A stretch of DNA of 64,000 nucleotides from Gloeobacter kilaueensis JS1 (GTDB taxonomy: Bacteria > Cyanobacteriota > Cyanobacteriia > Gloeobacterales > Gloeobacteraceae), in assembly GCF_000484535.1 (NCBI RefSeq), contig NC_022600.1:4270234-4334233 (forward strand), read 5' to 3'. The position numbers were made by a program, and so were the translations under genes. A model generated the notes under the pieces. That model saw only the letters and a program-made list of their open reading frames with translations, had not been told where the DNA came from and searched no databases. Below are positions 1-10,493 of this stretch, piece by piece; position 1 is the first letter of the stretch; each line of letters starts with the position of its first letter.

Positions 1-1002
1 CCTGCGCTTTCGTCTGCAGTACAGTTTATGAGCTTGAGCCAATTCGGCGAACAGGTACGCTTTCTCGTTGTTAACCGCTTTGACAGCGGCGAACCAGTAG
101 AATGTATAGAGAGTTCACGCTATTTGCGGGGCATTCGAGCACAAGAAGCCAGACGACTGGTGGTTGACGGTATACCTGGGGCCGCACTCAATTTGCTTAC
201 TGTCTCAGATTCTGAAGCTACCTTTCGACACCCTGAACTGGTAAAGTTAGTAAACTTTTTCAATCTGCGCAGTACAGGCACTGGCCGAGAGAAAGACTTC
301 GATCTTGATCAGGTAGCCCAGCGACTTTTCGAGGCTCTCGAACTCATCTCTATTTTCTTTCATCAGCGTAATTATTTAACTGGAATCACTCTACTGGCTG
401 CTGCTCACGAGCTTTTTTTAAAAGCAGCTGTTATCAGAGCGCTTACGACACGCTCAGAGATAGTTATTCGTGGCAACTCACTGTTGTTGAACCAGCTTAT
501 TGAATGGAATGAGTACGGTCTGCGGCTGAAGAAGAGCGAGTTACTTATACGCTTTGGCCTGCCTGACGATAAAGATGGCAAGAATTGGGGAGGTTTGAAA
601 GAAGGGATCGACAAATGCCTCAATTATCCTAAGCCTGCACTTAACAGGCGCTTTTTTGATGCTAATGCTAACTTGCTTCCGTGGCTGAAAGCACTTCGAG
701 CAGACTTTGTTAGTTGGCCATTGCTCAACTGGATCTGCGATGATAAGCGGTCTACTGAGCAGGATCTGCGCAACCAATTGATGCACAACTTACGGGGGAT
801 TGAAGAAGAAGATGTAGTCCGCTATTTACTGGCAGGCAAGCAAGCAGAGATTGGAGAAAGCCCCGCCTCCACCTACAGAGTAAAGATATTGGAACCATTT
901 CTAGCAGCACTAGAGCTTGTTGGCTCTGTCGATAAAGATGCAGTGCTTCTCGATCATCGGTTGAATGAGACAGCCAAACATCTTGTGCATTATTCACTCT
1001 AA
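1..1002 (+). CDS. Csm6-type CARF-HEPN ribonuclease, 5' end outside window
   Basis: The frame is open from base 1, and the first in-frame ATG (28) appears internal. The 333 visible residues start PALSSAV, which lines up with TPAMKSA directly after the SSGT loop of the CARF domain in the second Csm6 (6404-7675), so about 130 residues should lie upstream of the window. The C-terminal half has a HEPN motif RNQLMH (R-x4-H, bases 769-786). By family knowledge these are RNases switched on by cyclic oligoadenylate made by type III CRISPR effectors. The gene faces the decayed tail of the array, whose first remnant begins 48 bases after the stop. Family assignment is firm; the Csm6 versus Csx1 label is not. 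Confidence 0.72.
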   Translation, partial: PALSSAVQFMSLSQFGEQVRFLVVNRFDSGEPVECIESSRYLRGIRAQEARRLVVDGIPGAALNLLTVSDSEATFRHPELVKLVNFFNLRSTGTGREKDFDLDQVAQRLFEALELISIFFHQRNYLTGITLLAAAHELFLKAAVIRALTTRSEIVIRGNSLLLNQLIEWNEYGLRLKKSELLIRFGLPDDKDGKNWGGLKEGIDKCLNYPKPALNRRFFDANANLLPWLKALRADFVSWPLLNWICDDKRSTEQDLRNQLMHNLRGIEEEDVVRYLLAGKQAEIGESPASTYRVKILEPFLAALELVGSVDKDAVLLDHRLNETAKHLVHYSL

Positions 1003-1050
1003 CTAGAAAATGCAGAGCCGATAGTGTTTAACGGCAAGAATTGGAGCGCA

Positions 1051-1086
1051 CATTTCAACTCAATCTTCCATTAAGGGGTGTCGAGC
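1051..1086 (-). repeat. decayed terminal CRISPR repeat
   Basis: An ungapped 36-base comparison with the consensus repeat matches at 23 positions, including GTCGA near one end and AATC in the middle. It lies 84 bases before the first clear repeat. Decayed repeats mark the trailer end of an array, so this supports a leader at the opposite, cas-proximal end. Confidence 0.6.
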
Positions 1087-1170
1087 TTCTCAGGTCTGCA
1101 TGTGGTCTTTTATCGCTTAACACACGTCGAACGTGACAAGCTTCTGGCCTATTTTGAGACTTGCAAGTGG

Positions 1171-4100
1171 GCTTCCAATCTAATCGTTCGCTGAGGGACG
1201 TCGAACCTCCTGCACAGTGATCGGTATGTTGGATCTAGAGTGCCAGGTACTCACGTTTCCAATCTAATCGTCCGCTGAGGGACGTCGAACACGCCCGGTA
1301 ACACGCCCGGTAGCCCATCGGTAATCATTCAAAATCTCTACGTCACCACGTTTCCAATCTAATCGTCCGCTGAGAGACGTCGAACACTTCCTGGCCCTCG
1401 GAGACGCCCAGGCGCAGACCGGTTAACCCGTTTCCAATCTAATCGTCCGCTGAGGGACGTCGAACACCCGCCACTCTCACGTGGACTGCCCTCGGCTCCC
1501 GAAAGTTTTTATGTTTCCAATCTAATCGTCCGCTGAGGGACGTCGAACTCGCATTTACATTACTGCTTGCGTAGTGGGTGGCATCACCTTTGGTGTGTTT
1601 CCAATCTAATCGTCCGCTGAGGGACGTCGAACAGATTGTTCGCGCCGATATCGATCGTGCCAACAGCACGTTTCCAATCTAATCGTCCGCTGAGGGACGT
1701 CGAACTGGCTCTGCTTACGACCAGCGTGATGAAGACCAGAAAGCAGTTGTTTCCAATCTAATCGTCCGCTGAGGGACGTCGAACATCCGTGCCGATTTGT
1801 TATTGTTGTCCGTATTCGACGTTTCCAATCTAATCGTCCGCTGAGGGACGTCGAACAAGTTCGATTAAATGACTCAATAGTATACCGAATAGCTCCGGGT
1901 TTCCAATCTAATCGTCCGCTGAGGGACGTCGAACGATGGGGGCGGAGGGGCGTTTTGGTTCCCCGGCTTTTCCGTTTCCAATCTAATCGTCCGCTGAGGG
2001 ACGTCGAACTTCATGTCTTCTAACAGCACTGCGGGAGAAGGAGTCTAATTGTTTCCAATCTAATCGTCCGCTGAGGGACGTCGAACTTTCACTAGGTCTG
2101 GAGTTCAAATGGACATCGTCATCGTATTCCTCACGTTTCCAATCTAATCGTCCGCTGAGGGACGTCGAACAGAGTAGCGAGCAGGAAAACGCCTCAGATA
2201 CTTAGATGTTTCCAATCTAATCGTCCGCTGAGGGACGTCGAACCGGCGGCGTCATTTGGAAGAAGAGGGTGACTTAATGGACAAGTTTCCAATCTAATCG
2301 TCCGCTGAGGGACGTCGAACGAGCGCTATTACCAATGGCGGGTTAAAAACAATCTGCATGTTTCCAATCTAATCGTCCGCTGAGGGACGTCGAACACAGT
2401 GGCCTTACTGAGTGGAGGGGAAAGCTCCCGCCGATCGCGTTTCCAATCTAATCGTCCGCTGAGGGACGTCGAACCATTCGTTTATAAGTATTGGGTGATC
2501 TTCAACTAGTGGTTTCCAATCTAATCGTCCGCTGAGGGACGTCGAACATGAGTTGGTGGCGGCACGGAAACGGAAATAGTCAGATCCTCATCCCTGACTA
2601 GGTTTCCAATCTAATCGTCCGCTGAGGGACGTCGAACTCAAGTATCTTCATTACGACCGCATGGACCAGCTCACCAAGTTTCCAATCTAATCGTCCGCTG
2701 AGGGACGTCGAACAAATCATGGTCATCCGCATCATCACCCTCGCCGCACTTGCGGCTGCTGGTTGGGTTATCTTCATCGCCGCCTTCGGCGTTGACGGCC
2801 TCATGTTTCCAATCTAATCGTCCGCTGAGGGACGTCGAACAGGCTTATACCGTAACTGGGCTTTATGACGAAGTGCAGGTTTCCAATCTAATCGTCCGCT
2901 GAGGGACGTCGAACCCGCGCCGAAGCTAAGAGTCGCTACGAGCTCCAGCAGTCTCGTATGACAAACACCCCAGCTTCCAACCCCTCGGTCACGAGTGGCC
3001 GGTTTCCAATCTAATCGTCCGCTGAGGGACGTCGAACAGGCGTTGATATCGCCGAAGATCGTGGCAAAGCTCTTGCTGTTAAAGTTTCCAATCTAATCGT
3101 CCGCTGAGGGACGTCGAACCCGTCCTCCTGTCTTTGGTGGTCTACTTCACCACCTTTTGTCGGTTTCCAATCTAATCGTCCGCTGAGGGACGTCGAACAG
3201 GTCTGGTCGCGGTAAAGCAATAACGAAAGTAATTCGGAAGTTTCCAATCTAATCGTCCGCTGAGGGACGTCGAACACCCAGCTGGGCGGCGGCGGAGCGC
3301 AGGTATCGATGGTTTCCAATCTAATCGTCCGCTGAGGGACGTCGAACCTTACTAATGACCCAGCATAGTTCCGGTGGACAGGGCTCGTTTTGACTCGTTT
3401 CCAATCTAATCGTCCGCTCAGGGACGTCGAACGCGTACGTGATTGGGCTGATAGTCTAGTAGCGCGGTTGAGACAGCCGGTTTCCAATCTAATCGTCCGC
3501 TGAGGGACGTCGAACTTGTTGGCAAGCCCGTCAAGCCTTACACGCCGATGCAGGCGCTGCTTGACGTTTCCAATCTAATCGTCCGCTGAGGGACGTCGAA
3601 CCTGACAGCCACGACCCACCTGACTATACCTACAGCGCGGTGGTTTCCAATCTAATCGTCCGCTGAGGGACGTCGAACGCTGGGGTGCTAAGGGCACGTT
3701 CAAGACTGTTGACAACGACGCTGAGGTTTCCAATCTAATCGTCCGCTGAGGGACGTCGAACACCGCCTGCTTGCAGACAACGGCAACGTTCTCACTACCG
3801 GTTGACGCACCAATGGCCGACCAAAAGACTACCGACCTTGCAACGTTTCCAATCTAATCGTCCGCTGAGGGACGTCGAACCAGCAGCAGCTGATAGATAG
3901 CTGGCTTGCGGACTTGCGCAGTGTCTGGAACCACGGCCTAGCTCTGCTGCTGGAGCACGAGAGTTTCAGGTTTCCAATCTAATCGTCCGCTGAGGGACGT
4001 CGAACCTCAACCGCCGCCAGCTCGCCGTCCCCCATCTCCTCACGTTTCCAATCTAATCGTCCGCTGAGGGACGTCGAACTCTATGAAGTTGTCCACCAAT

Positions 4101-4698
4101 TCAACCAACTCAATACGAGTTTCCAATCTAATCGTCCGCTGAGGGACGTCGAACCGACAACACTGGCGTTACCGAGTCGATTTTGCCGTTCAAGTTTCCA
4201 ATCTAATCGTCCGCTGAGGGACGTCGAACCAACTTCGTGCACAACAGTGCGCGTCACGTAGCGGTTAACAAACCGCTCGAGTTTCCAATCTAATCGTCCG
4301 CTGAGGGACGTCGAACACGCTGAAATTGCATCAGTTTTGATGCCAATCGAATTGGTTTCCAATCTAATCGTCCGCTGAGGGACGTCGAACCAACTTGATT
4401 GATACGCCCCTCAGCAACGCTTGTACGGTGCAGTTTCCAATCTAATCGTCCGCTGAGGGACGTCGAACAAGCTTGAAGAACGACATCATCAGCTACTTTC
4501 AGAGCGGTTTCCAATCTAATCGTCCGCTGAGGGACGTCGAACTTTTGCACTTTGACAAGATCGTAAGCGGCTGATAAGTTATTAGTTTGTTTCCAATCTA
4601 ATCGTCCGCTGAGGGACGTCGAACGGTCCTATCCCAGAAGCTGGTCCCTATGTGCGCAAAGCGTTTCCAATCTAATCGTCCGCTGAGGGACGTCGAAC
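1171..4698 (-). CRISPR. CRISPR array, 43 repeats of 36 bp and 42 spacers, read on the minus strand
   Basis: Forty-three copies of a 36-base repeat were located (plus-strand form begins GTTTCCAATC and ends GGGACGTCGAAC). First copy 1171-1206 (two mismatches), last 4663-4698. Other variants are 1350-1385 and 3397-3432, with one mismatch each. Most spacers are 36-59 bases. Four are 83-91 bases: 2714-2804, 2915-3001, 3762-3844 and 3881-3969. On the minus strand the repeat ends TTGGAAAC, the usual kind of crRNA 5' handle. Decay at the low-coordinate end and cas2-cas1 at the high end agree that transcription runs from about 4700 down to 1171. ORFs predicted inside the array are repeat artefacts. 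Confidence 0.98.
3881..3969 (+). other. 89-base spacer that reads as a TnpB-like N-terminal segment
   Basis: On the plus strand frame 1 is open throughout. It gives a peptide beginning QQQLIDSWLADLRSV and continuing WNHGLALLLEHE. The pattern of a glutamine-rich start, R-x-V-aromatic-N-H and L-A resembles the N-terminal helix of IS200/IS605-type TnpB proteins. Because the crRNA comes from the minus strand, it would be antisense to such an mRNA, as type III RNA targeting requires. Confidence 0.45.
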
Positions 4699-4893
4699 TG
4701 TCTCCAGTGTACCCCTTGCTACAAGTGGACTTGAAGATGATTTTGCGACGACCAACATGTAGCCAGGGTGGAAGCAACACGCAATCTGGACAAGAAGAAG
4801 CTCAAATCCTTGCCAGGCTTGCATTCGACAACCTCTACAGTAAAATAGGCTCTCAAGCATTTTTCAGAAATTGTCGCAGCTGAATGTTAGTAC
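4699..4893 (-). promoter_or_regulatory. CRISPR leader region
   Basis: These 195 bases separate the cas2 stop from the first transcribed repeat. There is no convincing coding frame; short ORFs here run into repeats. Position, orientation and the perfect repeats next to it fit a leader holding the array promoter and the integration site. A weak TATTTT-like -10 can be read on the minus strand near 4838-4843, with no good -35. Confidence 0.5.
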
Positions 4894-5169
4894 TTACACA
4901 GCAAAATGATCCGGTTTCTCATAGAGGCCATCTCCACCCAAAATCACAATTTTCCTGGTCATATTGGCTGCGATAGGATAGTACCGAAGTGAGTCGTCTG
5001 GAAGTTTCAAAAGCTTCAGGAGACGGTTTCTCAGCTCCGAAAACTGAGACTCTTCCAGGTCGCACTCAAACACACTGTACTGCACACGCTTCCCGTATCC
5101 TTCGAGGAGCTTGGCGATCTTATTGCGACGTTTAGTGACAGGAATATCGTAAGCGACGACCCAGAGCAT
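4894..5169 (-). CDS. cas2: CRISPR-associated endoribonuclease/adaptation protein Cas2
   Basis: The 91-residue protein starts MLWVVAYDIP, the classic Cas2 beta-strand with the conserved Asp at residue 8, followed by a ferredoxin-like pattern (KRVQYSVFECDLEESQF). The length is normal for Cas2. The frame is open for another 23 codons upstream, but those overlap the end of cas1 and do not look like Cas2. The ATG at 5169 follows the cas1 stop by one base, so the two are translationally coupled. Cas2 dimerises with Cas1 to insert new spacers. It is the last cas gene before the leader. Confidence 0.95.
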   Translation of the reverse strand: MLWVVAYDIPVTKRRNKIAKLLEGYGKRVQYSVFECDLEESQFSELRNRLLKLLKLPDDSLRYYPIAANMTRKIVILGGDGLYEKPDHFAV

Positions 5170-5170
5170 T

Positions 5171-6166
5171 TCAGCGAATCCGGTAGACGTTGAACGGAAG
5201 CTCTGGATTCTGCAGAGCAGTTTTGTAGTTCTCGACACCTTGATCGATGAGCTTCCATCGAACGCCGTCGCGTCCGTTCGGCAGTTGAATGGTTTCTCCC
5301 ATTATTTGCTGAAACTGGGTGACAAACTTGCGGCGTCCGGAGTCTGCGAGGAAACAGGCTCCGTTTGCATATTCAAAGTCTTCAGAGGTGAACATGCGGC
5401 GATTGACCATCGTCAGTACTAAAGAATCGATGATAGGTGTGCGAAATGGCTCAATCAAATCTGAGATAAGAGCTAGATGATCGTCTCGTGGAACGTGAAG
5501 GTGGCCAAGATATGGATCGCAGCCGTGCAACTCCACGACCGCGCGAACATGGTTCCATAGCAGACTGTAGCCGAAGCTGAGAACCGCATTAGCAGGATTG
5601 GTAGGCGGGCGACGAATACGCTCGACTAGACGAAATTCACTGTCCTGTAACTGGCGGCCATAAGCTGGATAGAACTGGGCTGCTGCCGCTCCCTCATTGC
5701 CAAGCAAGGCCGCGATGTTACTTGTCTGCGGCACCCGTGATTCTAGATACCGCAGCACATCAACAGCAAACTCATTCTCGGCAATTGGGCGGCGGCGATT
5801 GAGCCGCTGTAACAGCACGCGCTGATTGTGGATTTTTGCTTCTACTAGAGATTGTGCCAGGCGCAGGCTTCGCTCAGATTCCTCCTGCACCCGTTGCTGG
5901 GCGCGACGCAGGTGCAAACGCCCCTGCTGCGGCGGGCTGAGGGTTCCGTAAAGCCAGCCCTGGCGAGAGAGCAACGCTAGCGGAATGCGCCGCCGCAGGC
6001 AGGTCCGCAGTACTTCGATACTCAAGTGGATGCGACCGAAGACAAATATTCGGTCGATGAGTGGCAGGGGTATCTGGCGAACAACTTCTCGTTTGCGGTG
6101 AATGGCCAGTTGCTCCCCATCTTTACCAACCCAGATACCTTGTTCAAGCAGATACAGGCTACTCAC
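5171..6166 (-). CDS. cas1: CRISPR-associated integrase Cas1
   Basis: The 331-residue protein has the Cas1 metal-binding signatures: Glu158 in LGNEGAAAAQFYPAY, His224 in GHLH and Asp236/Glu239 in SDLIEPFR. The N-terminal beta-sandwich begins SSLYLLEQG, which supports the GTG start at 6166. That start overlaps the end of the preceding membrane-protein gene by 8 bases. Cas1 with Cas2 performs spacer acquisition. No reverse transcriptase or Cas6 domain is fused to it, unlike some type III Cas1 proteins. No missing catalytic residue was seen. Confidence 0.96.
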   Translation of the reverse strand: MSSLYLLEQGIWVGKDGEQLAIHRKREVVRQIPLPLIDRIFVFGRIHLSIEVLRTCLRRRIPLALLSRQGWLYGTLSPPQQGRLHLRRAQQRVQEESERSLRLAQSLVEAKIHNQRVLLQRLNRRRPIAENEFAVDVLRYLESRVPQTSNIAALLGNEGAAAAQFYPAYGRQLQDSEFRLVERIRRPPTNPANAVLSFGYSLLWNHVRAVVELHGCDPYLGHLHVPRDDHLALISDLIEPFRTPIIDSLVLTMVNRRMFTSEDFEYANGACFLADSGRRKFVTQFQQIMGETIQLPNGRDGVRWKLIDQGVENYKTALQNPELPFNVYRIR

Positions 6167-6383
6167 GGGGCGCTCGTACTGCTAGACCGCCATCGCTAAA
6201 TAGCCAGCGAGCTACCTGATCAGCACATAAGCCGATAATCAAGCTGGATAAACCGACTGCTACGGTGCAGGTGAGCACTGCCGCAAGCCCGAGCGGTGCA
6301 ATAAGCAAGATGACGAGGGTGACAGCCGTGTTGACTGAGGCAACGGCGACGTTGCGGAAGAACAAGAGGCGAGCAGAGTTCAT
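6159..6383 (-). CDS. small two-segment membrane protein in cas operon, Csx18-like
   Basis: The 74-residue protein has two hydrophobic stretches (about residues 12-35 and 38-52; core VTLVILLIAPLGLAAVL) and short charged ends. It sits between csm6 and cas1, with its stop overlapping the cas1 start, so it is part of the cas transcript. Small membrane proteins named Csx18 occur near cas1 in cyanobacterial type III loci, and the sequence style fits, but I cannot confirm the family without a profile search. Function is unknown; a role at the membrane during interference or adaptation is only a guess. Confidence 0.6.
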   Translation of the reverse strand: MNSARLLFFRNVAVASVNTAVTLVILLIAPLGLAAVLTCTVAVGLSSLIIGLCADQVARWLFSDGGLAVRAPRE

Positions 6384-6403: not shown

Positions 6404-7675
6404 CTACATCCTTAATATGCGCAGGATGTGAGAATTAAGCACCTCAAAGGGATGTTTACCTGAAATAATGCCGATCTCGAGTAAAATTTTTCCCATCGTC
6501 TGCGTCAGGTGCTCAGAACCGCGAATCTCAGATAGCCCTTCATAACCGTGGGCGACGATGCAGCGGTTACGCAGGTCGCCGTAACTGTTGATGACGCGCA
6601 GATGTAAGAGTAGTATATCTTGGTTGAAGTATTCTAAAATTGCCTCAAGGATCCGGCGGTTGAAATCGCTGTTGAGCTGCAACCTGCCCCCACCTGGCAG
6701 ACGGTAGCCATCCAGGTACTTGCGTAGCTTCCCGCCGTCTATCTGGTCAATTACCTGCCAGTGATTGCGGTTGAGAAGGGTAAGTCCACATCGTTCTTCA
6801 ACGACAAGCTGCATAACAGCCTCCTGAAAACGGAAGACCCGTCCGAGAAAATCGGAGTACTCACACGTAGCAAACCTGACGAGAGCGTTGAAGTAGAGTT
6901 CACGCAAAAGCACCGGGGGACGGCGCTGACGTAGAGGAGTGATCTCTCGCATTAACTCATTCCGCAGAGGCGAGTCTACGTCGGCGAGGGCAGCATGAGC
7001 ACGATTAAAATCGAAGGCAAGCCGGAAGCGACCGAAGCGCAGTAGCCCCGTCAACTGCGGGGTTTCCAAATGTGACTGCGCAAGGCTGTCAAGGGCACCA
7101 GCATAGTTGAAGTCAGCAATCTGACGGGCAAGCACCTTTGCGTCGAACTCGTCACGGAGGTAGGAAGTGTCGCTTTCAAAAACTCGTGCCTGAGCGACAC
7201 TCATCTGTGTTGGGTCACGAACTTGCCAGACACGGGCGTTTGGCACATATCCGGCTGCTTGTAGCAAATTCCACGCCGACTTCATTGCCGGTGTGCCTGA
7301 GGAGGCATTTAACTCGATGCGGTCCGCTGCACAAAGGGCCATGCTTGCCAGCTCTATCCCCCGCCGCGCCTCGGTTATAGCAGCCTGGATGTCAATTGGA
7401 TCGGTCGATAGTACCTCATTCACCGGCAGCGCCATGACAGTCGCTGCTTCTAAATACAAGTCCTGGACAAGCCACTCGCGGCATAATTCCATCCGCTCTA
7501 CCTGGTCGGCGGTGTACAACAGCACGACCCCCCCCACCGTCAATCCCTGGCCCTGTAGATAGCGAGTAAGTGTTACGAGAGAGCCTTCCTGGTTAGTTGG
7601 ATAACCCGGTCTTTCTGACGAAGGATCCTGTTTACCAACAAATGAAACGACGACACTGACCACCTCAGAGCCCAA
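6404..7675 (-). CDS. csm6: Csm6-type CARF-HEPN ribonuclease
   Basis: The 423-residue protein has an N-terminal CARF Rossmann domain (VVVSFVGKQDP near residue 10, ligand loop NASSGTPAMKSA at 123-134) and a C-terminal HEPN domain with RNRCIVAH (R369 to H376). CARF domains bind cyclic oligoadenylate made by Cas10, and HEPN then cuts RNA non-specifically. It is the first gene of a minus-strand run csm6, small membrane protein, cas1, cas2. The start is uncertain: TTG at 7675 gives the longest form, while GTG at 7663 begins just before the first beta strand. It is a paralogue of the gene at 1-1002. Confidence 0.82.
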   Translation of the reverse strand: MGSEVVSVVVSFVGKQDPSSERPGYPTNQEGSLVTLTRYLQGQGLTVGGVVLLYTADQVERMELCREWLVQDLYLEAATVMALPVNEVLSTDPIDIQAAITEARRGIELASMALCAADRIELNASSGTPAMKSAWNLLQAAGYVPNARVWQVRDPTQMSVAQARVFESDTSYLRDEFDAKVLARQIADFNYAGALDSLAQSHLETPQLTGLLRFGRFRLAFDFNRAHAALADVDSPLRNELMREITPLRQRRPPVLLRELYFNALVRFATCEYSDFLGRVFRFQEAVMQLVVEERCGLTLLNRNHWQVIDQIDGGKLRKYLDGYRLPGGGRLQLNSDFNRRILEAILEYFNQDILLLHLRVINSYGDLRNRCIVAHGYEGLSEIRGSEHLTQTMGKILLEIGIISGKHPFEVLNSHILRILRM

Positions 7676-7849: not shown

Positions 7850-8125
7850 CTATCGATCTTCGCGGGCGCGCCACACGCGCAAAATGAAGAGCGCATCGTC
7901 CTTTAGTTCGTAACGCATCTCGTAGTCCGCGACGATGAGCCGCCGCACGTTGCGGGGGGCAAATTCCGGCAAGGCAGTACCGAGTTGGGGGAACTGTTCG
8001 AGTCGCTTAGCTGCTGCAATGAGGCTTCTGACGACTCTGGCAGCAGCCTGTGGATTTGTCGGTCGCAAAAAGGCATGGAGACGGTTCAAGTCCACAAGAG
8101 ACTTGTCGGTCCACCTTACTTCCAT
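7850..8125 (-). CDS. ParE/RelE-family toxin
   Basis: The 91-residue protein has the ParE pattern: N-terminal WTDKSLVDLNRLHAFLRP, a helix rich in Ala/Arg, then EFAPRNVRRLIVADYEMRYEL and a final strand ALFILRVWRARE. ParE proteins poison gyrase and RelE proteins cleave mRNA; the sequence cannot decide which applies. The ATG overlaps the stop of the upstream antitoxin-like frame by 10 bases, the usual coupling. The upstream partner seems to have lost its DNA-binding start, so the toxin may now be under-controlled, silent or degenerate. The toxin frame itself is intact. Confidence 0.85.
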   Translation of the reverse strand: MEVRWTDKSLVDLNRLHAFLRPTNPQAAARVVRSLIAAAKRLEQFPQLGTALPEFAPRNVRRLIVADYEMRYELKDDALFILRVWRAREDR

Positions 8126-8295
8126 GCGGGCGGCGGCAGGGGGGCGTCAGTTTCAAGGCTCGCTGCCCAAATTTCAATAGAAGCTTGATCGACAGTGCGA
8201 CCAGCGTCCACATCCGCTAGACCCTCAAGGGTGAGGCGATAGCGGCGCTCTTCCTGTTCGATAAAATCCGCCAGCGCCTGCCTGACATTCCACCA
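8116..8295 (-). pseudogene. RHH-type antitoxin lacking its N-terminus
   Basis: The frame ending at 8116 encodes a CopG-like C-terminal half: VRQALADFIEQEERRYRL, then LADVDAGRTVDQASIEIWA and LPPP near the end. This is the tail found in antitoxins paired with ParE. The ribbon that should precede VRQAL is absent. Upstream of about 8295 the frame merely runs antisense through the Uma2 remnant, and no good start codon lies near the junction. It could be translated from the far start at 8568 as a chimera, but a broken gene is more likely. Confidence 0.6.
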
Positions 8296-8784
8296 GTGGT
8301 GCCGGACGGTTTCCTCAGCCTCGAGGTCGAGCGCGTCTTCGATGAAGATCTGCGCCTGAGCTATGTGCTCTGGGAGGAATTGAAAGTACCAACTCTCGTT
8401 CTCAAGGTGGTCTCCAAGACGCGCAACAAAGAGTACCGGCAAAAAAAAGCGCTCTACGCCGAATTGGGCGTGCCCTACTACGTCATCTATGCGCCCCGCC
8501 GCCGTCGCAAGGAACACCTTGAGATTTATCGCCTGGTCGAAGAGCCGTACGTGTTGTTGCCGGGGCAACCGGCGTGGATCGAGGAACTTGGTTTGGGCAT
8601 TGGCCGAGAGCGAGGCACCTACGAGGGCGTTACAAGAGAATGGTTATACTGGTACGATCGCGACGGCAAACGGTACGCCACGCCTGAAGAACGGTTGGCG
8701 CAGGCTGAAGAGCAAGTCGAACGAAATCGAGAGCGAATCAGAGCCTTGGAGCAGAAGCTGCGCGAATCGGGCATCGAGCCGTAG
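8296..8784 (+). pseudogene. Uma2-family (DUF820) endonuclease, N-terminally truncated
   Basis: The 162 residues begin VPDGFLSLEVE, which is the middle of the PD-(D/E)XK fold, and continue with YVLWEELKVPTLVLKVVSK (the E-x-K region), LGVPYYVIY and a C-terminal Arg/Glu-rich coiled coil. Complete family members have roughly 70-90 residues before this point. Those are missing, and the upstream bases are instead the antitoxin gene in antisense. A GTG at 8296 could start a short product. It is probably a remnant joined to the antitoxin by a deletion or insertion. Compare the complete relative at 9771-10493. Confidence 0.65.
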
Positions 8785-8850
8785 GAACCCTTGTTCGCTT
8801 TCGTATACGGAGCTGCTGCAGGAATTTGGTTGAAACAATCCTTTAATTGT

Positions 8851-9285
8851 TTACGGCAAATCTACGGGTGGATGCCACCCTGCCAGCTCCCACTGCTGAC
8901 GAACGGTGACGGCAATCAAGTTGTTCATCTGCAAAGCAATCACTGTGGCCCGACCGCAGACTGTGTATCCAATCACTCGCGTCCCATCCGGACTCCAGCG
9001 AAAATGCCGGGACCAACGCTGAGTACGAGGATTGAACAGTTTGGTCGATCGGCCTGTTATCGGATCGCGAGCACGGACCTGGGTACCTTTGTAGCTATTG
9101 CAAAGCCGACAACTCAGCCACAAATTCTCTTCTTCGTTCGTTCCACCATAAGCTAGAGGAATAATATGTTCTATTTCAAGACGACCCAGGACATATTTTT
9201 GAGGACTCAGGCAGTAACCACAACGGTCTTGAGCATGTTGGCGAACCCTTTCACGCAGTTCCTCCGAAATGTATCCAGAACTCAT
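8851..9285 (-). CDS. HNH endonuclease
   Basis: The 144-residue protein has an HNH core with zinc cysteines: CGYC near residue 22, IEHIIPLAYGG with the catalytic His pair, then NLWLSCRLCNSYKG. HNH enzymes nick or cut DNA with one metal ion. The start ATG overlaps the stop of the upstream gene as ATGA, so the two are coupled. The C-terminal 60 residues are not recognisable. This pair sits in a cluster of toxin, nuclease and CRISPR genes; a defence or selfish role is an inference. No intron or intein is visible around it. Confidence 0.85.
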   Translation of the reverse strand: MSSGYISEELRERVRQHAQDRCGYCLSPQKYVLGRLEIEHIIPLAYGGTNEEENLWLSCRLCNSYKGTQVRARDPITGRSTKLFNPRTQRWSRHFRWSPDGTRVIGYTVCGRATVIALQMNNLIAVTVRQQWELAGWHPPVDLP

Positions 9286-9677
9286 GGACTCAACGGTGGA
9301 AGCAATCTTCGTTGTACAGCTTCACGTAGAGCCTGGGCCTTACGAAGTAATTGAAACTGATAAATTTGCATCAGCCCAGCAAGTTCGAGACGCTCAAATT
9401 CACCGAGCATACCCGCCTGTTGCCGATTTAGCAATTCACTCAGATGCTGGTCCTGCTGTTCGGGCAATTGCAGTTCGCATAGAGCCAGTACCTGCTCATC
9501 GCTTAGTTTCTCGGCTGCGGTGAAATCGCCTGATTCCGGAGCAGGTGAGACTGGAGCGAGAGAAAGAGCTAGAGCTTCGCTCAAAACCTCTCTAACCTCC
9601 CGGCCAGATACCTGAGCTAGATCCTGGGCACGGCGGTAGATTTCATCCGGTACATCAAGAGTGATCCGCGTTGTCAT
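9282..9677 (-). CDS. RHH-like small protein coupled to HNH endonuclease
   Basis: The 131-residue protein begins TRITLDVPDEIYRRAQDLA, a ribbon-helix-helix-like strand and helix, and has EVLSEALAL as the second helix. The rest is acidic and helical and contains QLPEQQDQHLSELLNRQQAG. It is not a recognised antitoxin family, but its size, position and ATGA overlap with the HNH gene resemble an antidote or regulator placed before an effector. Function unknown. It is preceded by about 90 bases of non-coding DNA that could hold the promoter. Confidence 0.7.
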   Translation of the reverse strand: MTTRITLDVPDEIYRRAQDLAQVSGREVREVLSEALALSLAPVSPAPESGDFTAAEKLSDEQVLALCELQLPEQQDQHLSELLNRQQAGMLGEFERLELAGLMQIYQFQLLRKAQALREAVQRRLLPPLSP

Positions 9678-9770
9678 AGCTTGAGATTCAGAAGAAAGAT
9701 CGCCTCAGCAAACCCTAGCCCACAGGGCGACCAAGACCGTGCCAGGGATATGAGAAGGATTAGCCATGGC

Positions 9771-10493
9771 TTAGAGCGCATCCGGGTCAAGGCCCAGCTC
9801 CCGTAATCGTTGGGCCAGGCGCTCGGCGCGCTGTCGCTCTTGTACAACTTGTTGCTCAGCTTGCACGGCTCGCTGTTGCTCCTGTAAAACCTGTTGCTCA
9901 GCCTCCAGGGCGCGCTCCATCGGAGTCGGGATCACCGTCCCATCAGCGGTCAGCAGGCGCAGACGATCCTCAGGCACTCCAAAAAACAGCTCAAGCTGCC
10001 CACTCCAGAGCCGTCCTGATTCGCTCACCTCAAGCGGCTCGTACTGCCCCTCTACAAGATGAAAACCGCACAGTTCCTGGCTTTGCGGGTCGAACCAGAA
10101 GTACTCGGGCACCCGGAGCACATCCTGATAAATTTGTTTTTTCAAACCGCGATCGATCTCCGCCGTCGATTCTGAGAGAATCTCGACGATCACATTGGGC
10201 AGGCGGCCTCCCTCCTCCCAGACGGTCCAGCTGCGCCGCTCCCGCCGCTCGCAGCCCAGTACTACAAAAAAGTCCGGCCCCCGAAAGTCCTCGGACTTGC
10301 GCTGGGTGAGGCTGTAGTAAATTGTCAGGTTGCCCGAGCAATAAAAATTCTGACGGTCGCGCCAGTGGCTTTCGAGCGACTCGATAAGCACCTGCATCTG
10401 CTTACGATGCCAGTCGGATTCCATTGGAGGTTCGTCACTCCACAGGTCGGTGGGCGGCCAGATAACGTCCGCCGCTGGATTCGGCTGGTACAT
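9771..10493 (-). CDS. Uma2-family (DUF820) putative restriction endonuclease
   Basis: The 240-residue protein has the PD-(D/E)XK layout of cyanobacterial Uma2 proteins: GPDFFVVLG holding the acidic metal ligand, VIVEILSESTAEIDRGLK around the Glu-x-x region, then VPEYFWFDP and an acidic strand. A long Gln/Glu/Arg coiled coil (about residues 190-235, repeats of EQQVLQEQ type) ends the protein. The family is hugely expanded in cyanobacteria and its biological role is not settled. ATG at 10493. It is the intact counterpart of the remnant at 8296-8784. Confidence 0.88.
   Translation of the reverse strand: MYQPNPAADVIWPPTDLWSDEPPMESDWHRKQMQVLIESLESHWRDRQNFYCSGNLTIYYSLTQRKSEDFRGPDFFVVLGCERRERRSWTVWEEGGRLPNVIVEILSESTAEIDRGLKKQIYQDVLRVPEYFWFDPQSQELCGFHLVEGQYEPLEVSESGRLWSGQLELFFGVPEDRLRLLTADGTVIPTPMERALEAEQQVLQEQQRAVQAEQQVVQERQRAERLAQRLRELGLDPDAL

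Follow-up and report, generated by a model that had tools for sequence, protein, structure and literature searches.

The place directly before cas1 is one that csx18 shares with cas4, as Cas4 is encoded before cas1 or fused to it. Cas4 is, however, a nuclease of another fold, and no similarity between it and Csx18 was seen. The reverse transcriptase (RT) of type III systems, fused to Cas1 or encoded beside it, is likewise a cas1 partner, but it is an enzyme and is linked to other Cas1 clades. In our sample, neither Cas4 nor RT was ever encoded within 1.5 kb of a csx18-linked cas1 gene. Three further proteins, Csx28, Cam1, and Csx23, resemble Csx18 in being CRISPR-linked membrane proteins (as predicted for Csx18), but they act in interference, Cam1 and Csx23 responding to Cas10 messengers. 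Csx28 forms a pore after Cas13b activation, according to the accessible part of the respective report (PMC12669027). Csx18 differs from all three in having no detected sensor domain and in being placed with cas1.

The closest described relatives of the protein studied here form the Csx18 family (NCBIfam NF040558, PADLOC PDLC01041 and PDLC01382), with which it shares a near-full profile match, a hydrophobic hairpin, and the place directly before cas1. A search of the open-access literature (PMC) found no paper on the function of Csx18, on its two Cas1-matched types, or on the exclusion of Cas4 and RT. To our knowledge, the site in the cell where Cas1-Cas2 meets invader DNA and the source of DNA for type III systems without Cas4 or RT are open questions, and a protein of membrane type that cyanobacteria keep beside cas1, apart from Cas4 and RT, makes a spatial answer directly testable. 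As judged from its sequence and gene neighborhoods, Csx18 is small and hydrophobic, its core hardly varies, and its gene adjoins cas1-cas2 in type III settings of cyanobacteria in which no Cas4 or RT is encoded near cas1.

The csx18 gene and its product

In the window (the whole 64,000-nucleotide stretch of DNA analyzed here), csx18 occupies positions 6159-6383 of the minus strand, with an ATG at 6383 and a stop ending at 6159, whereas the plus strand of this interval contains six stops in frame 1. The 74-residue hydrophobic protein reported in the earlier note, which gave no strand, is thereby established (MNSARLLFFRNVAVASVNTAVTLVILLIAPLGLAAVLTCTVAVGLSSLIIGLCADQVARWLFSDGGLAVRAPRE); it consists of a basic N-terminus, two hydrophobic helices separated by an APLG turn (residues 29-32), and a short C-terminal tail. 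The Csx18 model NF040558 matches it with 85.2 bits (E=2e-24, profile positions 3-63 of 64) against a curated cut-off of 50 bits, and the PADLOC models PDLC01041, labeled 'adaptation associated', and PDLC01382 match with 2.9e-25 and 2.5e-24. The HMM comparison advised earlier thus confirms the guess that the protein may be Csx18, and the alternative of a new family is rejected, since Csx18 models match above the cut-off. Given that the family is already named and that one PADLOC model is called 'adaptation associated', the gene itself is ordinary; the window copy is, by these matches, an ordinary member of a named cyanobacterial CRISPR family. A housekeeping membrane protein was also considered and rejected: the matches to DUF3270 (PF11674; 20.1 bits, E=7e-4, residues 6-53 only, with the Pfam gathering score of 25 bits not reached) and to IncD are sub-threshold, and the source genome (a single contig of 4,724,791 bases) contains one csx18 match. 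A clear match to a housekeeping membrane family without CRISPR linkage, the finding that had been named as decisive against the earlier proposal, was not seen. Three profile libraries revealed no CARF, SAVED, or other sensor domain in Csx18 at E up to 1, so that the signaling half of the earlier proposal (a membrane component of adaptation or signaling) lacks support, and Pfam gave no match to a PD-(D/E)XK (Cas4-type) nuclease domain in the window protein.

The hydrophobicity is nearly continuous over residues ~11-54, the 19-residue Kyte-Doolittle means being 2.0-2.6 for starts 11-28 and 1.7-2.2 for starts 29-37. The two hydrophobic stretches noted previously do hold, though their separation rests on the APLG turn and on the AlphaFold2 model, which predicts helices 3-27 and 33-63 with this turn between them (mean pLDDT 72.7, pTM 0.41). 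The confidence of this hairpin model is modest, and its comparison with PDB folds gave no match at E up to 10, a lone hairpin carrying little fold information. Multiple alignment of 44 Csx18 proteins, the window protein included, revealed five invariant residues (T22, L26, G32, V36, and T40) and nine kept in at least 90% of sequences (R10, N18, I28, A29, P30, L31, L33, D55, and L61). The window protein has the entire conserved core (R10, N18, T22, L26, IAPLGL at 28-33, V36, T40, D55, and L61). A basic N-terminal part (median net charge +3) characterizes the 113 distinct Csx18 proteins compared, whose tail is neutral and variable, with a median of 28 residues; the tail of the window protein, as called here, is shorter than in most relatives. 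By the positive-inside rule, the basic N-terminus and the two spans would place both ends in the cytosol, and Csx18 is accordingly predicted to be a two-helix membrane hairpin, in which R10 and D55 lie at the same membrane edge and may pair.

Over 23 pairs (21 for the tail), among them one duplicate (L136/L133 = L040/L046) and one pair made up of different tandem copies (L077/L079), the dN/dS ratio is ~0.13 in the Csx18 core, 0.38 in its tail, and 0.09 in cas1. Together, the profile match and the low ratio of the core mark csx18 at 6159-6383 as evidently a real gene. The pattern [IL][DEQR]R[RWFDEQ], chosen after the tails had been seen, occurs in the last 8 residues of 17 of the 55 Csx18 representatives, compared to a mean of 0.9 and a maximum of 5 in shuffled sequences. 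A docking peptide would be expected to have such a form, with a motif closing a mobile tail; the short tail of the window protein has no match to it.

Sharing 8 bases with csx18, the cas1 gene of the window (5171-6166, minus strand, 331 aa) starts with GTG and is followed by cas2 (4894-5172, minus strand, ~92 aa, or longer if translation begins at a GTG at 5238) and by an adjoining CRISPR array (1170-4780, ends approximate; 42-43 copies of a ~36-nt repeat within 1000-4900). A Csm6/Csx1-type CARF-HEPN effector gene (6404-7675, minus strand, 423 aa; PADLOC PDLC01806, E=5.5e-160), whose product scores below the cut-off of the NCBIfam csm6 model, precedes csx18 at a distance of 20 bp and in the same orientation, in agreement with the overlap and the place after csm6 described before. 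Positions 28-1002 of the plus strand contain the C-terminal portion of another CARF-HEPN (Csx1) gene; its full 516-aa ORF starts upstream of the window, directly preceded there by a gene identified by its cluster as cmr6. The Cmr4 and Cmr6 genes (both named by clusters) and a Cas10 match at G000:C1:4264924 are located upstream of the csx18 locus, so csx18 stands beside the cas1-cas2 pair of a type III locus. The source genome has two cas1 matches, one of which, at 2,065,346, follows the only Cas4 match (2,064,770-2,065,285), and the other, the window copy, follows csx18; a single genome thus displays both partner states.

Distribution of csx18 and its linkage to cas1

Csx18 was found in 48 of 386 genomes of the phylum (58 matches), and cas1 in 136. 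The co-occurrence of the two across cyanobacteria, recommended earlier as a check, proved strong, with cas1 present in all csx18 genomes (47 of 48) except G385 (Fisher p 4e-23; 47, 1, 89, 249). At a genome match threshold of 1e-8, Cas10 was detected in 92 of the 386 genomes and in 45 of the 48 with csx18, the exceptions being G058, G155, and G326. Counted by genome, csx18 thus accompanies Cas10 almost as often as it does cas1, which speaks against a reading based purely on Cas1. The pattern L[LI]IAPLGL[AFT][AT], searched over 84,980 species, hit 119 stretches, of which 100 were confirmed and 80 loci kept; all 80 are cyanobacterial by title, and, as the scan used one short pattern, the statement 'cyanobacteria only' is valid for those 80 loci. 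A phage origin was considered and rejected: there was no relative among 50,697 phage records, and none of the 8 stretches of IMG/VR viral contigs that matched a pattern was confirmed as Csx18. Three records in a plasmid search match Csx18.

In 52 of the 56 loci around the 58 matches (the window locus included), csx18 lies at most ~0.7 kb from cas1, with cas2 usually next, and 75 of the 80 species-scan loci have cas1 within 1.5 kb. These two sets overlap; after removal of duplicates, and with tandem copies counted apart, cas1 is located within 1.5 kb in 114 of 123 distinct csx18 places, on the same strand in 95 and divergently in 19, and csx18 precedes cas1 in the co-directional loci. By comparison, 33 of 40 Cas10 stretches chosen for the absence of csx18 have no cas1 within ~9 kb, and the seven that do are all III-B; cas1 is present in 35 of 37 csx18 loci with a recognized Cas10 (L085, whose Cas10-like neighbor was unrecognized, stands outside the Cas10 counts). 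This gene linkage gives good support to the association of csx18 with the adaptation module, and the earlier idea of a membrane component of adaptation gains from it.

The places without cas1 within 1.5 kb are of several kinds. In L146 and L183 the sequence ends near csx18; L057 and L078 stem from a single genome and lie on short contigs without cas1, their csx18 having no start codon where the relatives have ATG; in L082, from the genome G385, which has Cas10 and no cas1 match, csx18 is cut off before D55. Despite long flanking sequence, cas1 is missing from the vicinity of four csx18 genes: L085, in which the APLG turn is lost, and L161, L196, and L204, which keep the turn (L196 having an odd tail) and lie among type III genes with no cas1 within ~8 kb on each side or on the whole contig. 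Signs of decay are thus seen in copies without cas1 nearby, including the lost ATG (L057 and L078), the truncation (L082), and the lost turn (L085); one csx18 beside cas1 (L069) also has an internal stop. Tandem csx18 pairs were observed in two loci (L077:7893-8498 and L079:7769-8564), where the second copy has QMPRLG in place of LIAPLG, as if it were a specialized paralogue.

A divergent WYL-CARF gene is the nearest recognized upstream neighbor in 30 of 95 distinct clade A places (e.g., L036-L040). The csx18-cas1-cas2 unit may therefore be under signal control by a possible nucleotide-responsive regulator. On an annotated plasmid of Gloeothece verrucosa, within the region of 8 kb to each side, csx18-cas1-cas2 stands amid unrelated genes and no effector genes; its GAF-annotated neighbor had no BLAST match in the WYL-CARF set. 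The unit also occurs in G058 (locus L053), a genome with no Cas10 match at 1e-8. At seven distinct csx18 loci, no gene within 6 kb could be named as a type III effector; for five of these (L038, L055, L062, L080, and L054) the same contig carries a Cas10 match at a distance of ~9 to 22 kb, which leaves only L053 and L066 as candidates for standing apart.

Cas1 partners and the two Cas1 clades

Cas4 (15 sequences) and RT (7) were sought in every ORF of L032-L247 with profiles built from control loci, which could miss diverged members. For the 162 distinct cas1 genes with products of at least 250 aa, the partner within 1.5 kb is csx18 only in 109 cases, cas4 only in 25, RT only in 10, and none of these in 18; no cas1 gene has two of the three. 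These shares apply to the sample rather than to whole genomes, the controls being hand-picked (40 Cas1 stretches with 47 Cas1 genes, and 40 Cas10 stretches with 6 more). As the csx18 sets were gathered by csx18, the informative figure is the frequency of cas4 or RT within 1.5 kb, which is 0 of 109 for csx18-linked cas1 versus 35 of 53 for other sampled cas1 (Fisher 1.6e-22). Pfam revealed fusions of Cas1 with RT in L110 and L120 and with Cas4 in L111.

Seven of the 18 partnerless cas1 genes share a stretch with RT-Cas1 (L108 with two, L110, L117, L118, L119, and L124). Six of these second, RT-free genes form a long-branched clade of their own. An RT-Cas1 together with a separate Cas1 is described for Arthrospira in the accessible part of a published study (PMC5513706). 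At least four other partnerless cas1 genes (L106, L107, L121, and L216) score like clade A, and the shorter L221 leans the same way, whereas L114, L123, L127, L214, L226, and L230 are unlike it. The existence of clade A-like cas1 without any of the three partners implies that csx18 is dispensable at times.

The Cas1 tree (quick IQ-TREE) contains 98 rows, 51 csx18-linked and 47 hand-picked others; its label 'RT' stands for a length >500 aa and includes five Cas4-Cas1 fusions. Clade A comprises 43 rows, 40 of them csx18-linked (support 99), and the window Cas1 is its deepest, long branch. In clade B, all 11 rows are csx18-linked; it groups with Cas4-linked Cas1 (support 98), apart from clade A. 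The Csx18 tree (123 rows, 104 of them different, 64 columns) shows the same split, with support 99 and a single change, into 102 A and 21 B rows; according to a warning of the tool, long branches join the B group and the window row. Gene arrangement follows the clades as well: with duplicates included, all 21 B pairs are divergent and all 104 A pairs co-directional. The neighbors named by PADLOC clusters are Cas10b, Cmr, and WYL-CARF in the same-strand loci, and Cas10d, Csx10, Csm2, or Csx3 in many divergent ones. In clade B, csx18 diverges from cas1 and at several loci leads a Cas10d operon, so that it may act on behalf of the effector; at L131, a Csx18-Cas1 pair of clade B lies beside the III-B genes Cmr1 and Cas10b. 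Of the two PADLOC Csx18 models, the second gives the higher score for L131, L161, and L085, the three proteins of clade B type that were compared.

Pooled distances over 48 clade A loci gave correlations of 0.70 for Csx18-Cas1, 0.58 for Csx18-Cas2, and 0.28 for Csx18-Cas10, with partial correlations of 0.67 for Csx18-Cas1 given Cas10 (permutation p 0.001) and 0.09 for Csx18-Cas10 given Cas1 (p 0.08). Pooling of two Cas10 sizes made the Csx18-Cas10 correlation look lower than it is. With the size classes taken apart (n 19 and n 22, respectively), the correlation with Cas1 is 0.83 and 0.77 and that with Cas10 is 0.45 and 0.68, the partial correlations being 0.79 and 0.54 for Cas1 and 0.19 and 0.29 for Cas10. 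Csx18 distances follow Cas1 more than Cas10 in every comparison, yet Cas10 correlates too; neighboring genes that are inherited or move together would give the same values without any contact.

Possible roles of Csx18

From the above data we infer the topology of Csx18, its contact with Cas1-Cas2, tethering, and an effect on spacer capture. The reading that we tentatively prefer, with chances a little under even, is that of a membrane hairpin that assists Cas1-Cas2 when type III systems capture spacers, most probably as an anchor that keeps the integrase at the membrane. Both ends of the hairpin would face the cytosol, and Csx18 would act as an accessory of the spacer-capture complex, its exposed tail or cytosolic edge holding Cas1-Cas2. 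Incoming DNA would be encountered there, whatever is caught close to the membrane could become spacers, and Csx18 would act at the step served elsewhere by Cas4 or RT, the supply of DNA to the integrase. The tethering itself is conceivable, though we hold it with some reserve. More doubtful is the broader possibility that Csx18 represents a third kind of Cas1 accessory, embedded in the membrane and taken up by two Cas1 lineages, so that many cyanobacterial type III systems capture DNA at the membrane. In Thermus, where type III operates without RT, spacers derive from both DNA strands and an apparent early-region bias was put down to selection, as stated in the accessible part of that work (PMC7515739), which to that extent gives no support for capture at the point of entry. 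In Arthrospira, RT-lacking III-D arrays draw spacers from a pool distinct from that of RT-linked ones, according to the part available of PMC5513706.

Two other readings also tie Csx18 to Cas1, and both appear unlikely. Csx18 could be a brake that keeps Cas1 idle at the membrane until infection and so prevents self-acquisition or stray Cas1 activity. The gene linkage fits a brake just as it fits the preferred reading, as do the order of csx18 before cas1 in co-directional loci and the WYL-CARF gene upstream in 30 of 95 clade A places, by which signal control of the unit may apply; however, csx18 copies exist without cas1 nearby, and a brake alone does not explain the exclusion of Cas4 and RT. 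Alternatively, Csx18 could bridge the type III effector and the adaptation module, e.g., with both anchored at the membrane and active Cas10 feeding DNA to Cas1-Cas2. Such a bridge, which we likewise would not expect, is consistent with clade B csx18 lying back to back with cas1 and, in several loci, heading a Cas10d operon, with L161, L196, and L204 keeping csx18 and type III genes in the absence of cas1, with Cas10 in 45 of 48 csx18 genomes, and with the Csx18-Cas10 correlations within size classes (0.45 and 0.68). The stronger correlation with Cas1 in each comparison argues against it, as do the clade B pair of L131 adjoining III-B genes and the 33 of 40 csx18-free Cas10 loci that simply have no cas1.

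The same occurrence with Cas10 and the same Cas10d operons could point to a membrane-damaging type III effector, pore- or holin-like in the manner of Csx28, Cam1, and Csx23, that stands beside cas1 by chance, and the hydrophobic hairpin with its conserved polar residues (N18, T22, T40, S/T47, and D55) would suit such a function. We regard this as improbable: Csx18 has no detected sensor domain, csx18 is tied locus by locus to cas1 rather than to Cas10, csx18-cas1-cas2 is present in G058 with no Cas10 match, and some of the 56 loci have other CARF genes (CARF-HEPN of two kinds, 6 each, CARF-RelE 7, and CARF2-HEPN 4). That csx18 is a passenger without any role, carried along by linkage, is hardly credible given its near-invariant core, the core dN/dS of ~0.13, and its association with two separate Cas1 clades, even though it is absent beside some clade A-like cas1 genes (L106, L107, L121, and L216).

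Some of the neighborhoods contain additional nuclease and toxin genes. Beyond the cas operon, positions 7850-10493 of the window carry a ParE-type toxin gene, an HNH endonuclease gene, and two Uma2-family nuclease genes. In several III-B loci, a Uma2-family nuclease gene (PADLOC PDC-S03 cluster) is located between cas10 and cmr3 or beside cmr6 (L061, from the same plasmid record as L248: 4190-4744, L063, L076, L083, and L084).
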